DNA from: Candidatus Tepidiaquacella proteinivora
GTDB taxonomy: Bacteria > Bacteroidota > Ignavibacteria > Tepidaquicellales > Tepidaquicellaceae
Length of the DNA stretch: 64,000 nt
Assembly: GCA_013348845.1 (NCBI GenBank)
Contig: CP054675.1
Span: 1,869,501 to 1,933,500 of the forward strand
Direction of reading: 5' to 3'
Part shown: piece by piece, positions 10,981-51,268 of the stretch
How positions within the stretch are numbered: the stretch's first letter is position 1
How the letters are laid out: the number at the start of each line of letters is the position of its first letter
Notes under the pieces: generated by a model
Databases searched by the model: none
Told to the model about the DNA's origin: nothing
Seen by the model: only the letters and a program-made list of their open reading frames with translations
Program-made: the position numbers and the translations under genes

Positions 10981-11279
10981 ATTATAAATTAATAATTATT
11001 ATGAACTTGTTCTGAATAAACCGATTAAAATTAATATTGGCTTTAAAAATATTATTTCCCTTTTGAATTAATTTCTTCAATGACTCTCTGGAATTTTGCA
11101 TATCTATCTTTCTATGGGTGTATCTGATATTTTATAAAAAATAAAGATAAAATTATTAATTTTATTGTTCAAGATAAATATAATAAAATTCAAATATATA
11201 AAATAAGTGATTTATATAAAAGAGTTATTAGTAATTCAAAATATTCAATTTCAGAATTGTTGAACTGATACAATTAATA
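10981..11279. other. Leader region of the polysaccharide operon
   Basis: 299 bases without a gene, between the Wzz-like start and the end of the M3 peptidase gene, both on the minus strand. Read on the minus strand, 11198-11191 is TATATTTG, an exact match to the TAnnTTTG -7 box of Bacteroidetes, but no TTG lies 17-23 bases upstream of it. If used, it would give a leader of about 200 bases. I see no JUMPstart/ops-like element or riboswitch. Confidence 0.4.
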
Positions 11280-13370
11280 CTATTCCATACCTTTTCTTTT
11301 AAGTAAAGGTTTAATATCGGGTTCTTTTCCACGAAATCTTATATATAAAACCATCGGATCTTCTGAACCACCTTTTTCAAGAATATTTTTTCTAAAAGAT
11401 TCTGCTGTTGTTTTATTGAAGATACCATCTTCCCTGAATTTTTCAAACGCATCTGCATCAAGTACTTGTGACCAGATATAGCTGTAATATCCGGACGAAT
11501 ATCCGGAATTAAAAATATGATTAAAATAAGTTGTCCTATATCTTGGGAGAATTTCATTTATCAAGCCAATTTTATTCATAGTATTTTTTTCAAAAGTTAA
11601 AATATCTTCAGTCAATTCATTGGTAAGAGTATGATATGCCATATCTAAATAGCATGCTGCAAGATATTCTGTCGTAATGAACCCTTGATTGAATTTTGAA
11701 CTTTCATCCAGTTTTTTTAATAGTTCATCTGGAATTTTCTCACCTGTTTGATAATGCTTCGCATAAAACTCTAAAACAGCAGGTTCGGTAGCCCAGTTTT
11801 CCATAATTTGTGACGGTAATTCCACAAAGTCTAAAGATACATTAGTTCCTGAAATACTTTTATATTGACATTTTGATAACATTCCGTGTAATGCATGCCC
11901 GAATTCATGGAACATAGTTTCTACTTCATCGAAAGTTAATAATGCCGGCATATCTTTCGTTGGTCTGGTAAAATTAAAAACATTTGTAATTATTGGAGTT
12001 ATATTCTTACCTTTATAAATATACTGCTCTCTGTAATTACTCATCCATGCTCCGCCGCGTTTGTTAGAACGTGGATGAAAATCAAGATAGTAAATACAAA
12101 TATGACTACCATCTGAATCTAATACTTCATAAGTCTGAACTTCTTCATTGTATTTCGGTATATCAGTCCTAAGTTTGAAAGTTAAGCCAAATAAAATATT
12201 TGCAACTTTAAATACACCTTCTTTTACTCTATTTAATTCAAAATAAGGTTTAAGTTGTTCTTCATCCAGGTTATATTTTTCTTTCCTTAATTTTTCTGTA
12301 TAATATCTCCAGTCCCAGGGTTGAAGTTTAAAGTTTCCATTCTCCTTATCTATTAATTTCTGCAAATCTTCTGCTTCTTTTTGAGCAGTTTTTATTGACG
12401 GTATCCAGAGTTGATCTAATAGTTTATATACATTTTCAGGTGCTTTTGCCATTGTTTCTTCAAGTCGGAATTCTGAATGTGTATTGTAGCCAAGCAAATT
12501 TGCTTTTTCTATTCTTAATTTTATTATTTCTGCAACTATTTCTTTATTATCGTATTCGTTGTTATTATTTCCTCTATTCATATAAGCGGTTAGAATTTTT
12601 TCTCTTAATTCTCTTTTATCGGCATATTGTAAAAAAGGCATAATGCTTGGGTTATGCAATGTAAACATCCATTTACCTTCAAATCCATTCTTTTGAGCTG
12701 TCTCATATGCTGATGCAATCACATTTTCTGGTAAACCTGCGAGGTCTTCTTTATTTTCTATAATAAGTTTGAAATTATTTGTTTCTGCAAGTAAATTACT
12801 TCCGAATTTTAAACTTAAAATAGATAATCTCTCATTTATTTCTCTTAATCTTTTCTGTTTTTCTTCATCTAAACCTGCTCCTCCTCTTATAAATCTTTTA
12901 TAAGTTTCTTCTAATAATGTCTTTTTTTCAGTGGGGAGATTTAATTCCGAGCGTCGATCATATACATATTTAATTCTTTCAAATAATTTTTTGTTTTGTA
13001 AAATTTTATCATTGTGTTGAGAAATTAAAGGAGCAATTTCCTGAGCTAATTCCTGAAGTTCTTTGCTCGTATTCGCTGATAGCATATTATAAAATACTGC
13101 AGCAATTTCTGATAAAAGGATATCGCTGTTTTCAAGAGCTTCAATTGTATTACTAAATGTCGGGATAGCAGAATTACTGACTATTTTCTCTATCTCTTTT
13201 TCCTGCTGAAGTATAGCCTCTTTGAACGCTGGTAAAAAATGTTCTGTCTTAATTCTGTTAAATGGTGGAACGTTGAAGGGGGTTTCGTATGGGCTTAAAA
13301 GGGGATTATCCTGCCCTAACAATAAGGTATTACAGATTAAAATTAAAGCTGTTAAAATTAATTTTTTCAT
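11280..13370 (-). CDS. dcp: M3 family metallopeptidase, peptidyl-dipeptidase Dcp-like, exported
   Basis: 696 residues, the family's usual size plus a signal peptide (MKKLILTALILICNTLLLGQ). The zinc site HEFGH lies at about residue 489 (TMFHEFGHALHGM), with the third ligand Glu in FVELPSQIMENWA ~28 residues later. The start of the mature protein (NPLLSPYETPFNVPPFNRIK) resembles Dcp rather than cytosolic PepF. It probably removes C-terminal dipeptides from peptides in the periplasm. The WYL regulator lies six bases upstream, so both are probably co-transcribed. Confidence 0.92.
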   Translation of the reverse strand: MKKLILTALILICNTLLLGQDNPLLSPYETPFNVPPFNRIKTEHFLPAFKEAILQQEKEIEKIVSNSAIPTFSNTIEALENSDILLSEIAAVFYNMLSANTSKELQELAQEIAPLISQHNDKILQNKKLFERIKYVYDRRSELNLPTEKKTLLEETYKRFIRGGAGLDEEKQKRLREINERLSILSLKFGSNLLAETNNFKLIIENKEDLAGLPENVIASAYETAQKNGFEGKWMFTLHNPSIMPFLQYADKRELREKILTAYMNRGNNNNEYDNKEIVAEIIKLRIEKANLLGYNTHSEFRLEETMAKAPENVYKLLDQLWIPSIKTAQKEAEDLQKLIDKENGNFKLQPWDWRYYTEKLRKEKYNLDEEQLKPYFELNRVKEGVFKVANILFGLTFKLRTDIPKYNEEVQTYEVLDSDGSHICIYYLDFHPRSNKRGGAWMSNYREQYIYKGKNITPIITNVFNFTRPTKDMPALLTFDEVETMFHEFGHALHGMLSKCQYKSISGTNVSLDFVELPSQIMENWATEPAVLEFYAKHYQTGEKIPDELLKKLDESSKFNQGFITTEYLAACYLDMAYHTLTNELTEDILTFEKNTMNKIGLINEILPRYRTTYFNHIFNSGYSSGYYSYIWSQVLDADAFEKFREDGIFNKTTAESFRKNILEKGGSEDPMVLYIRFRGKEPDIKPLLKRKGME

Positions 13371-46841: not shown

Positions 46842-48083
46842 ATGGAAGAAAAAAATTCATACGAACAAGAAAATATGAATGCTAATAATATGGAAGCTGT
46901 GGAAATTGCAGAATTAGAAGAAAAAGTTCGTGCACTTAGAAAGGATGACGCTCATCTTTTGCAAATAACTGACTATGTTATAAAAAAGGGAATTAATCAA
47001 CTTGAAAAAGAGGGAGCTTATGCTTATTTCAAATCCGCATTTCCTTCTCTTATAGTTGTACTTTTATCTTTTTTAGTTGATGTTGCTTATGTACCACTAT
47101 TTGGCCATGTTGCTAACAGTTTTTCACAATGGTTATTCCCCGGCTCTGAATTGTTAAATACACAAATTGAACCGGTTCAGCTCTGGTGGATGCCATTTGT
47201 TTGTTATTTATTGTTTATTTTATTTGCATTAAGGGCTAATCAAACCTTGAAAACAGAAATAATAAATAAAGGGGCTTCTGAAGGAATTATTGCAAGAGTA
47301 AATGAAAAATATAATGGATTGGTAGATTCTATTGGTACAGCGCTTCCACTTCTCGGTGCCGCTATTTTACTTGTGTCGATAAAAATTGGTCCTCAATTAT
47401 TCCTTGGATTTTCTGTACCATTTGAAATAAAAGCTATTATTGTTCTTGCAGTTGCTAAGTTATTTGGTGCAGTTTTTGAAGCGCAAAGTTTGAGATTCCA
47501 AAAAATTGTTGAGGAAGTAAGGAATATAGAAACTCAGTTTTATTATCAGACCCGAGAAAAAATGCAAGAAAATCTTATTACAAAACTTAGTGAAGCAAAT
47601 CGTAAAGTTATGACTGATTTAATGGTTTCAAGTGGTTCGCAAGTTAAGCATTTTTCAAAGGAAGAAATAGAATATATTTATAAATTAATTAAAGTTACCA
47701 ATGATATTACAAAGGAATTTGCTGCGAGTATGGAATCCTTTAAGAACACTGTTGATAAAATAAAGAATGTTAAATTATTTGATTCTACAATTATTAATCA
47801 GTTTAATGAAATTTCCACAACTTTAAATAATATTGCAGGAATTGTACATAAATCAGCGGAATATTCTTCTATATTAAGACAGCAACTTGAAGCTATTCAG
47901 CGATTAGCTGAACAAATAAATAAATTAAAAATCGACTTACCTGATGAAAAACCGTTGAAAGAACTGCAAATGACTGCCCATTTTATTTCTGAAACCTTGA
48001 AAATTATGAATGAAGCAAATGCTACGAAGAGTCTTGAAAATTTAGCCTATATTGCAGGAAAACGTTCAGGGAACAATTTGTAG
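46842..48083 (+). CDS. Four-helix inner-membrane protein with cytoplasmic helical tail (GldL/MotA/TolQ-like layout)
   Basis: 413 residues, family not recognised. A charged N-terminal helix (~20-60) precedes four membrane helices (~66-90, 113-131, 161-182, 192-214). Helix 3 reads IGTALPLLGAAILL, reminiscent of the TolQ/ExbB/MotA helix with its small-residue Pro-Leu-Leu-Gly pattern. The remaining ~200 residues are predicted helical and coiled (SAEYSSILRQQLEAIQRLAEQ), as in cytoplasmic tails of PMF-driven stators and of GldL. It heads a four-gene plus-strand cluster and may be the motor or anchor subunit. No database comparison was possible. Confidence 0.5.
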   Translation: MEEKNSYEQENMNANNMEAVEIAELEEKVRALRKDDAHLLQITDYVIKKGINQLEKEGAYAYFKSAFPSLIVVLLSFLVDVAYVPLFGHVANSFSQWLFPGSELLNTQIEPVQLWWMPFVCYLLFILFALRANQTLKTEIINKGASEGIIARVNEKYNGLVDSIGTALPLLGAAILLVSIKIGPQLFLGFSVPFEIKAIIVLAVAKLFGAVFEAQSLRFQKIVEEVRNIETQFYYQTREKMQENLITKLSEANRKVMTDLMVSSGSQVKHFSKEEIEYIYKLIKVTNDITKEFAASMESFKNTVDKIKNVKLFDSTIINQFNEISTTLNNIAGIVHKSAEYSSILRQQLEAIQRLAEQINKLKIDLPDEKPLKELQMTAHFISETLKIMNEANATKSLENLAYIAGKRSGNNL

Positions 48084-48181
48084 TGAAAATTGATTAAAAA
48101 ATAGAAAGGTATATTATAAATTATAGTGAGATTGAGAATAGGTGTGAAAAATAATTTTCTAAAATTAAAAAAACAAATACA

Positions 48182-49102
48182 ATGAAGAGTGCAAGAGATG
48201 TAAAATTCGTTATTTATCAAGTCCTTTACATCTTTGTAGTATGCGTAATAGCACTCAAAGGTGCAAATATAGATTTGGTTGAAGTTATATCTAAAAAGGA
48301 TATAGTTAAAAAACAATATGCAGATTCTTTAAAGGCCTTTATAGATTCTATGTTAGCATTAGGATTAGTGCCCAAACTTGATTTTGATAGTGCTGTTAAT
48401 TTTGAAGATTTCCAGAAATTACAGTCTCAGTTAATTCAAATGAGAACTCAGCTGTCTGTTGTACAAACACAACCCCAAATAAAGCTTGAGCAACCACAAA
48501 TAATTAAACCTGAAGAGATTAAGAAAGAAGAAGAAGAAAAACCTTTGGAAGAGAAAAAAGTCCAGGCTGATGTTCAAATACAAAGTTCTTTTACTCAATA
48601 CCTAACCTATACAATTAAAAATCCATACAACGGAACTTTGGTAATATCAGCTGATGGAAGAACACTTGCCAGTATTCCTCCAGGGGGCTCTGGTACATTT
48701 ACGCTGGGAGGTGAAAAAAGTATAACATTTAGAGTAGGTGAATCTTCTGATACTAAACCTATACAGAAAAAACCACCGCCAGAAATTACTATGAAGCGAA
48801 TGGCTCGTTCTGGTGAGGGTGTTTCTTTAAGGGAAATTCAAAATACAACTGGATATAGGATATATATTAAAGATATTGCTCCCGATCAATTAAAAGTTAC
48901 ATTTTCTGGTCCAGTCAGAGTTACTCAATCGGCTGCTGGAGTTTATGATGTTACATTGAACTTTTTGACTTCAAAATCTGCATTTGATGCCTGGACAGAA
49001 GGTAAAGATGAACCTTATTCAGTTGCATTCAATGTTACTGTCGTAGATGCTGCAGGAAATAAAATAACGCGTCAGGGTGTCTTTCAATTTTCTGAATGGT
49101 GA
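48182..49102 (+). CDS. Single-pass periplasmic beta-domain protein (GldM-like layout)
   Basis: 306 residues. One membrane helix lies right at the N-terminus (~8-26, YQVLYIFVVCVIALKG), as in GldM/PorM. A helical stretch (~38-98) and a Glu/Lys-rich linker (~108-128) follow, then two beta-rich periplasmic domains (~133-186, with PPGGSGTFTLGG, and ~203-306). GldM is similarly one helix plus stacked periplasmic domains spanning to the outer membrane, but I see no clear sequence identity. It is preceded by the four-helix protein (98-base gap) and followed by a candidate outer-membrane protein. Confidence 0.5.
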   Translation: MKSARDVKFVIYQVLYIFVVCVIALKGANIDLVEVISKKDIVKKQYADSLKAFIDSMLALGLVPKLDFDSAVNFEDFQKLQSQLIQMRTQLSVVQTQPQIKLEQPQIIKPEEIKKEEEEKPLEEKKVQADVQIQSSFTQYLTYTIKNPYNGTLVISADGRTLASIPPGGSGTFTLGGEKSITFRVGESSDTKPIQKKPPPEITMKRMARSGEGVSLREIQNTTGYRIYIKDIAPDQLKVTFSGPVRVTQSAAGVYDVTLNFLTSKSAFDAWTEGKDEPYSVAFNVTVVDAAGNKITRQGVFQFSEW

Positions 49103-49180
49103 TAAATTATTGTAATGGATTTATTAAATTTTTGTTATTAAATTTGATATCTTAAAAAATGACAAATTAATTATATTAAA

Positions 49181-50422
49181 ATGAATAAAAAAAGATTAAT
49201 TTTTAGCCTCATCCTTATTTTTTGTTCTATAATATTTTTACAGGTGAGTTATGTTTTTGCACAGGAAGAAAGTGAAACTGATCCAAGAACATGGAAATAT
49301 TTCAGGATAATCGCTCGGGCTCAGGATGATAGCGTGTTTATTAAATTGCAGGATGAATTATTTATTGACCCTAAACTTGAGAGTTATGCTATTACTGTTA
49401 ATATAATTGACCCTCAGGTTCAGACAGTGATTATAGGTGATGAAACTTCTCCGGATGCCCAAAGATTTGCATGGTCACAATTATCAAAAGAAACACAAGA
49501 TAAGTTAATAAACTGGACGGGAACCAATAAAATTAATCTGCGGGAAGCAAAATTAGATTATGGTTCTGTATTTTTAAGGGTTATAAAAAAGATTAAGATT
49601 AAAGAGCTAATTGCCCCTCCTAAAAAGGTTAGAGAAATTGTTAACACCACTGCTTATCAGAACCCATATTTGCAGGTTTTTGGCGGTGACCCACTTGGTA
49701 TACCACTAAAAAGAGGATTTGGATTTTCTTTCTATACAGGAACTCCTTATTCAGGACCATTAGAAACAGATAAAGTAGGTGCGAATTTCCATTTACTTGG
49801 TGCTTCGATTGGTGTGAGTACTAGAATTAAAGAGTTAGTATTAAAGCACCAGGCAGGAGCAACAGCTGGAGAAAGTGAGAGTAAGTTTGGCAAATATAAC
49901 AATTTATTTACACCAAAACTCGGGCTCGACGTTTCGTATGTTATTCCTTTTGGTAATTTCTTCCAGGTTGGATATTATACAGTTCTTGATTCCGGTGACT
50001 ATGACCCGCCTCTAAGAGTAAGAGTAGAAGGCGATACTACATATATGCCTAATAGTGTAATTGTCGATGAAAGTTTCTTTAATTGGGAATTTAGATATCC
50101 CTTTAGAGCTTTAGGTTCTACCCGTGCTAAAGTTTATGTCGCAAGTTATTTAGGTGAAACTCATATAGGATTTTCAGCGAGAGAAATGAGGTTTGCTGGT
50201 TCTGTCTTCGATTTAAGAATAAATGCAACCCTTGCTGGCAGAAGAAATTTCCAACTATTAATAGAAACTTTAATATCTGATGTTGGGGAAGGTTTCTCGC
50301 TAACAGGGTTTGCTTTTGGGCCATCAATAAGAATGACAAAAACACCAAGCGGAAGTTTTGGTGTTGTTTGTGTTATGATTAATGGAAGATTTAAGATTGG
50401 TGATTACTTTGAAGAAAAGTGA
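49181..50422 (+). CDS. Exported protein with probable outer-membrane beta-barrel
   Basis: 413 residues, family not recognised. A signal peptide ends near VFAQ (~28). Residues ~30-165 form a mixed region (DPRTWKYFRIIARAQDDSVF, with later Lys-rich IKKIKIKEL). From ~170 on, alternating Gly/aromatic strands (RGFGFSFYTG, LGLDVSYVIPFG, FFQVGYYTV) suggest a barrel or beta-sandwich in the outer membrane. A -7-like TAAATTTG (49139-49146) lies 35 bases before the start. It is the third gene of the envelope cluster and may be the outer-membrane end of the complex. Confidence 0.5.
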   Translation: MNKKRLIFSLILIFCSIIFLQVSYVFAQEESETDPRTWKYFRIIARAQDDSVFIKLQDELFIDPKLESYAITVNIIDPQVQTVIIGDETSPDAQRFAWSQLSKETQDKLINWTGTNKINLREAKLDYGSVFLRVIKKIKIKELIAPPKKVREIVNTTAYQNPYLQVFGGDPLGIPLKRGFGFSFYTGTPYSGPLETDKVGANFHLLGASIGVSTRIKELVLKHQAGATAGESESKFGKYNNLFTPKLGLDVSYVIPFGNFFQVGYYTVLDSGDYDPPLRVRVEGDTTYMPNSVIVDESFFNWEFRYPFRALGSTRAKVYVASYLGETHIGFSAREMRFAGSVFDLRINATLAGRRNFQLLIETLISDVGEGFSLTGFAFGPSIRMTKTPSGSFGVVCVMINGRFKIGDYFEEK

Positions 50423-50473
50423 GTTATTTTTAAATTAATTAAATAATTTATTTTATAAAATATTTAAGGGGAA

Positions 50474-51268
50474 ATGAAAAAATTGTTTTTTGGTGGGATT
50501 TTAATAATCCTGTTCAGTTGGACAGGATTTTTATTTTCCCAGGAATATGAAGAATGCTGTGACGAACTTGAAACTGAGGAACAGCATTCGAAATTTTTTA
50601 AAGATTTGAAAGATGCCAGAGAAAAAAAGAAAGCTCTGGAAATTGAAATAAAAAATCTGACTTTAGAAATTAATAACCTTGAAAGCGAAGCTGCCGATAA
50701 GGATAAAATGCTTACTGAATTAAAGGAGGAATATGACAATCTTGTTAAATCTTTAAACTTGAGCGATTATGATTATAAATTTTCTGAAACTGAAAATGTA
50801 ATTAATAATAGAATTGGTACTCCTGTAAAAGCAAGAGAAAATTATTTTGATGAAATCTCCCTTTCCAAAGCAAAATGTTTGCCGTTATATCAACAACGAT
50901 ATGAAAATATGTATGCAAAATTAATTAAGTGGGAAGAAGATGTAACTAAGATAGTTGTTAAAGAAGAAAAATTTAACCAATATACTGTAGTAAAAGGTGA
51001 CTGTTTATGGAAAATTGCAGAAAAAAAAGAGATCTATGGTAATGCAATGTTCTGGTCAAAAATTTGGGAAGCTAATAAATCAGGAGTGATTTCAGCACCT
51101 AAGGGAACCCCGACTAAAATTGTAAAGCCGGATTTAATATATCCTGGACAGGTTTTAAGAATACCTGAATTAACCGAAATAGAGAAAAAGATTATTTCAG
51201 ATAAAAAACAAATAAAAAGAAAAGAACGAAAGCCTAAAATTTCTCCAAAGAAAAAGGATAAAAAATAA
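50474..51268 (+). CDS. Exported coiled-coil LysM protein
   Basis: 264 residues. A signal peptide (~1-22) is followed by a Cys pair (EECCDE), a coiled coil (~37-95, [26 protein letters not shown] region), and a LysM-type peptidoglycan-binding domain (~170-236: [41 protein letters not shown]). The tail is extremely Lys-rich (~20 residues). It probably ties the neighbouring envelope proteins to peptidoglycan. AAGGGGAA precedes the ATG. It converges on rsmB. Confidence 0.82.

Follow-up and report, generated by a model that had tools for sequence, protein, structure and literature searches.

The window analysed here is a stretch of 64,000 nucleotides from Candidatus Tepidiaquacella proteinivora (Ignavibacteria), in which four co-directional open reading frames, referred to below as P1 to P4, occupy exactly the positions assigned to them by the original prediction (46842-51268; Table 1). 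They are separated by 98, 78 and 51 bases, and a tRNA-Leu gene lies upstream of P1 on the opposite strand. Promoter and terminator scans of the locus gave nothing better than chance level. Upstream of the cluster, the window also encodes a cytochrome c552-family protein (PF02335, 36369-37817) and an Nramp transporter (PF01566, 39649-40917).

Table 1. Genes and features of the P1-P4 locus, in window coordinates.
Feature	Position	Strand	Description
P1	46842..48083	+	413 aa, four-TM inner-membrane protein, GldL-like from residue ~151 on
P1 TM1-TM2 hairpin	47037..47243	+	residues 66-134, absent from GldL, carries Asp80 (17/18 sequences)
P1 TM3-TM4 hairpin	47316..47486	+	residues 159-215, aligns with GldL TM1-TM2
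P1 Glu195 codon	47424..47426	+	invariant (18/18), on GldL Glu49 in the alignment
P1 cytoplasmic helical tail	47487..48080	+	residues 216-413
P2	48182..49102	+	306 aa, single-pass, periplasmic linker and two beta domains
P2 TM helix	48206..48262	+	residues 9-27, from hydropathy of the alignment
P2 C-terminal Ig/cadherin-like domain	48767..49099	+	residues about 195-306, predicted model
P3	49181..50422	+	413 aa, signal peptide, ~120-residue N-terminal domain, probable outer-membrane beta-barrel
P4	50474..51268	+	264 aa, signal peptide, coiled coil, LysM; accessory
P4 LysM domain region	50981..51166	+	about residues 170-231

Alignment-averaged hydropathy places four membrane segments in P1, at about residues 66-88, 114-134, 159-184 and 190-215, followed by a helical tail of ~198 residues, in agreement with the four-helix inner-membrane protein with a 200-residue tail that had been predicted. 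Conservation is highest in TM3/TM4 (mean pairwise identity 0.71, against 0.24-0.53 elsewhere), and two acidic residues in or next to the membrane segments are retained, Asp80 in 17 of 18 sequences and Glu195 in every one of them. The middle of the tail seems dispensable in some relatives, while the last ~50 residues are kept: in three genomes of the window's family, hereafter f1 (L084:8353-10778, L085:11795-14468 and L086:6507-9030), the tail is mostly missing, and two of these proteins still align over the last ~50 residues. P2 is split there, a short TM piece together with one or two additional proteins taking its place. An AlphaFold model of P1, built on a two-sequence alignment, reached a pLDDT of 39 and gave no usable structure.

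As had been proposed, P2 has one membrane segment and, in its predicted model, two strand-rich regions. The C-terminal block (195-306), modelled with a pLDDT mostly of 62-82, is predicted to fold as an Ig/cadherin-like sandwich, and the remainder is of low confidence. The N-terminus and TM helix stand out in conservation (mean pairwise identity 0.74 versus 0.25-0.46 elsewhere), a membrane-first pattern that is the same as that of GldM, with 0.71 in the membrane part and 0.22-0.34 in the rest. Within the helix there is no acidic residue, whereas Tyr12, Gln13, Tyr16 and Lys26 are kept. First comparisons of P2 with GldM found nothing; the probabilities of the profile comparisons were 1.7-3.5, and scores were slightly above those of shuffled sequences, with inconsistent registers. 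In a structure search with the P2 model, GldM (6ey4) ranked 39th with an E of 0.0099 and a low TM-score, below many unrelated proteins. A likeness by eye between the TM helices of P2 and GldM was rejected as evidence, the helix ranking 88th of 292. P2 has the layout of GldM, and homology to GldM lacks support from the sequence and profile tests.

P3 is probably an outer-membrane beta-barrel, as judged from its signal peptide and from the beta-type hydrophobic moment of its last 260 residues (9.24, compared with 6.86 +/- 0.63 for shuffled sequences), in keeping with the outer-membrane strands originally suspected. A PorP/SprF-like identity was considered and dropped, since P3 has no similarity to one PorP sequence; nor does it resemble the protein in the GldN position of locus L135, described below. 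The ~120-residue N-terminal domain of P3 is also found by itself, or joined to other sequences, in genomes of f1 and of a second family, f2 (L193:8012-8791, L194:8384-8797, L196:8091-8474, L199:6629-7384 and L200:3708-4700). In P4, the signal peptide, the coiled coil and the LysM domain expected of it were all found, and twin cysteines follow directly after the signal peptide. In f1, P1-P3 have on either side a gene pair for a small coiled-coil lipoprotein and a LysM protein (L073:3983-5160, 11143-12285).

The distribution of these genes indicates that the conserved unit is smaller than the cluster described at first. Among 149 genomes of the class Ignavibacteria, P1 is present in 24 and P3 in the same 24; P2 is present in 22, and the other two genomes carry an N-terminal piece of P2 between P1 and P3. 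All trio-bearing genomes fall in three families (f1, f2 and f22). A P1 profile search of the class added only four weak matches of coiled-coil type, and once these are discounted 125 of the 149 genomes are without the trio. The P3 profile, run against 296 genomes of the phylum, had no match outside the class. P1, P2 and P3 are adjacent and co-directional in each of the three families. Their neighbourhoods differ: with genes named by sequence reading, f1 has PhoH-like and binding-protein genes there, f2 has genes for respiratory complex I and for signalling, and f22 has others. The linkage of the three genes, kept in 24 genomes of three families and in three unrelated flanking contexts, goes beyond chance. 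In contrast, only in f1 does the trio have LysM genes resembling P4 at its sides, so that three genes, not four, make up the conserved unit: the proposed four-gene cluster holds for P1-P2-P3 in 24 genomes and does not extend to P4 outside the window's family.

Additional copies of P2 stand apart from the trio in four f2 genomes (L087:8570-9487, L088:8478-9392, L095:8412-9371 and L093:8676-9587), where they adjoin a sensor-kinase/NarL-like regulator pair. Three of these four genomes have two P2 copies with 91-99% DNA identity to each other, above the identity seen from one genome to another, a pattern suggestive of gene conversion.

No Pfam or NCBIfam family was matched by P1, P2 or P3 as single sequences, nor were Pfam families matched when alignments of 18-22 members were used, and sequence searches of the PDB returned nothing convincing for any of the three. 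By these searches they are unnamed families, so far seen in three Ignavibacteria-type families only. The open-access literature yielded no account of the P1-P2-P3 cluster and none of a type IX secretion (T9SS) motor in Ignavibacteria; a study based on profiles that include Gld proteins reported the T9SS from Bacteroidetes alone (PMC4793230).

The original prediction had left open whether P1 and P2 are a very diverged GldL/GldM pair. The curated GldL model (TIGR03513) has no match in the window's genome and none over the cut-off in the class genomes of the phylum sample, and no GldL model was among the NCBIfam matches of P1. First profile comparisons between P1 and GldL found similarity in the tail only. 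In a wider test, 392 distinct membrane proteins were scored against a GldL profile. Twenty GldLs came out highest, followed by one divergent GldL of another class and then by a P1 homologue (score 35.9, P 2.5e-4), whose alignment of 203 columns runs from GldL TM1, placed on P1 TM3, through the tail. Several further P1s rank high in the same register, and 15 P1s outscore the 354 other proteins (Mann-Whitney p 4e-8, from family members that are not independent). When the divergent GldL was included in the profile, profile-profile comparison with P1 gave a probability of 55% and a score of 39.9. Shuffled P1 scored 17.5 +/- 3.1 against the same profile (maximum 25.6; 0/60 reached 39.9), and five other families scored 10.5-19.9. 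The aligned part of P1, residues 151-386, covers TM3, TM4 and the tail and corresponds to nearly all of GldL with the same topology. It places Glu195 on GldL Glu49, in both cases an invariant membrane glutamate in the second hairpin helix, and E49 is essential for motor function in GldL (PMC8986121).

The helical tail contributes most of this signal, and similarity there could stem from low complexity: in a tail-only scan the best P1 scored 29.4 and a coiled-coil LysM protein 25.5. The hairpin compared by itself was not significant (15.0 against a null of 11.1 +/- 2.5, reached by 4/40 null scores), an HMM of the GldL hairpin did not single out P1 in hmmsearch, and the GldL hairpin does not match TM1-TM2 of P1. 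For this reason the kinship of P1 with GldL is suggested rather than proven. The collinear alignment from TM3 to the tail, with E195 on E49, nevertheless makes P1 probably a distant relative of GldL that carries an additional membrane hairpin at its N-terminus. The comparison proposed at the outset thus returned a remote similarity of P1 to GldL, with no match of P1 to ExbB or Pfam and none of P2 to GldM or Pfam. The notion of a very diverged GldL/GldM pair gains real though partial support, on the side of P1.

Type IX secretion is thought to require the GldLM motor. SprA was detected in 148 of the 149 class genomes and PorV in 61/61, while neither GldM (TIGR03517) nor GldN (TIGR03523) rose over the cut-off in any of the 149. 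Of the at least four T9SS cargoes claimed for the window, three were confirmed with PF18962. By the curated models, canonical gldL and gldM had no match over the cut-off elsewhere, and the linkage of the trio is kept in relatives. The further argument, that a motor of this kind has to be encoded in the genome, does not imply a T9SS role for the trio, because 125 of the 149 genomes lack the trio and nearly all of them carry SprA. Either these SprA-bearing relatives rely on something else or the trio has another job.

Against this background, a first reading would make the trio the type IX motor of f1, f2 and f22, either replacing GldLMN or representing an extreme form of it. SprA, PorV and cargo are present where canonical GldL, GldM and GldN go undetected, P1 is GldL-like, and the genes follow one another as GldL-like, GldM-like and envelope protein. 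The reading nevertheless has to account for the many trio-less genomes that possess SprA and have no GldM over the cut-off, and for the position of sprA in the window's genome, ~0.76-1.6 Mb from the trio and unlinked to it. We consider this reading unlikely, although it is the alternative to which we give most credit. A static trans-envelope tether or scaffold, in which P1 would anchor, P2 would span the periplasm and P3 with the LysM proteins would hold the outer membrane and wall with no ion flow, is improbable in our view. It would suit parts that span from the cytoplasm to the outer membrane, as well as the LysM and lipoprotein genes found on both sides of it in the window's family. A tether, however, has no need for membrane helices as its most conserved parts, nor for the buried conserved acids D80 and E195, and f2 and f22 do not keep the linkage to LysM genes.

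More improbable still is an envelope sensor, or an exopolysaccharide or outer-membrane assembly complex, unrelated to motors. It is suggested by genes identified by sequence reading: P3 paralogues in f22 (L195:8725-9891 and L197:8285-9472) precede Wza-/Wzc-looking genes in sugar/exopolysaccharide clusters, and the orphan P2 copies of f2 follow a NarX/NarL-like pair. These, however, are paralogues away from the trio, and in f1 and f22 the trio itself adjoins none of those genes, although its downstream neighbours in f2 do include genes that resemble sensor kinases and response regulators.

The reading that we prefer, and to which we give an even chance, is that the trio forms a diverged, GldLM-type envelope motor driven by protons, with P3 as its outer-membrane partner. 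The existence of orphan P2 copies without P1 is a point against it. In such a motor, P1 would assemble as a ring around an axle of P2, and protons passing along the P1/P2 interface would titrate Glu195 in TM4 and possibly Asp80 in TM1. The resulting movement of the P2 helix would reach the P3 barrel by way of the linker and the beta domains in the periplasm and a presumed P2-P3 contact. The cytoplasmic tail of P1 would serve as the anchor of the ring, a role already proposed for the GldL tail (PMC9389320), and P4 and its relatives may provide contact with peptidoglycan in the window's family only. What the trio would drive may include a SprA-type translocon, which is one possible candidate. 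With regard to the trans-envelope machine envisaged at the outset, P1 to P3 would reach from the cytoplasm to the probable outer membrane, whereas the wall link through P4 is restricted to the window's family.

When compared to known systems, the trio resembles GldL/GldM (PorL/PorM) in the correspondence of TM3-TM4 and the tail of P1 with nearly all of GldL, including a glutamate at the E49 position, in the single-pass P2 with its periplasmic beta domains and near-invariant N-terminus and TM helix, and in the adjacency of P1 and P2 in GldL-GldM order. It differs from it in the two extra N-terminal helices of P1 (four TM helices versus two), which stays below the curated GldL cut-off, in the length of P2 (306 aa against ~510) with no demonstrated GldM homology, in the lack of a detected GldN and in a P3 that is not detectably PorP. 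A genome from another class (G234) carries at L135:2760-4636 a GldM-like protein of 380 aa, beside a diverged GldL, that matches GldM with an hhalign probability of 91%, so that short GldM-like proteins do exist in the phylum. This protein aligns to GldM from the periplasmic domains on and has no similarity to P2 (score 11.9); together with the diverged GldL it may be a short form of the motor.

In MotA, the last two of four TM helices line the pore. P1 has the same number of helices as MotA and no match to the MotA/ExbB/TolQ family (PF01618), and a MotA/ExbB kinship, considered for the look of TM3-TM4, was discarded when hhalign gave a probability of 0.1 against ExbB proteins of the class. 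P2 in turn differs from MotB/ExbD/TolR in the lack of an acidic residue inside its TM helix. The relation between GldLM and MotAB/ExbBD is left unresolved in the literature (PMC9389320, PMC12505986), a question that a four-helix protein containing a GldL-like core would help to answer. The boldest form of our proposal, a lineage-specific motor driven by the proton-motive force, with a GldL-like ring core behind a MotA-like TM pair, is doubtful; such a motor could bridge the two-helix GldL and the four-helix MotA, and could energise an SprA translocon from which GldLMN were lost or always missing. In this regard, the near-universal SprA of the class genomes searched, combined with their lack of GldM, GldN and canonical GldL, raises the question of how secretion is energised in these bacteria, for which the P1-P2-P3 trio is a concrete candidate.
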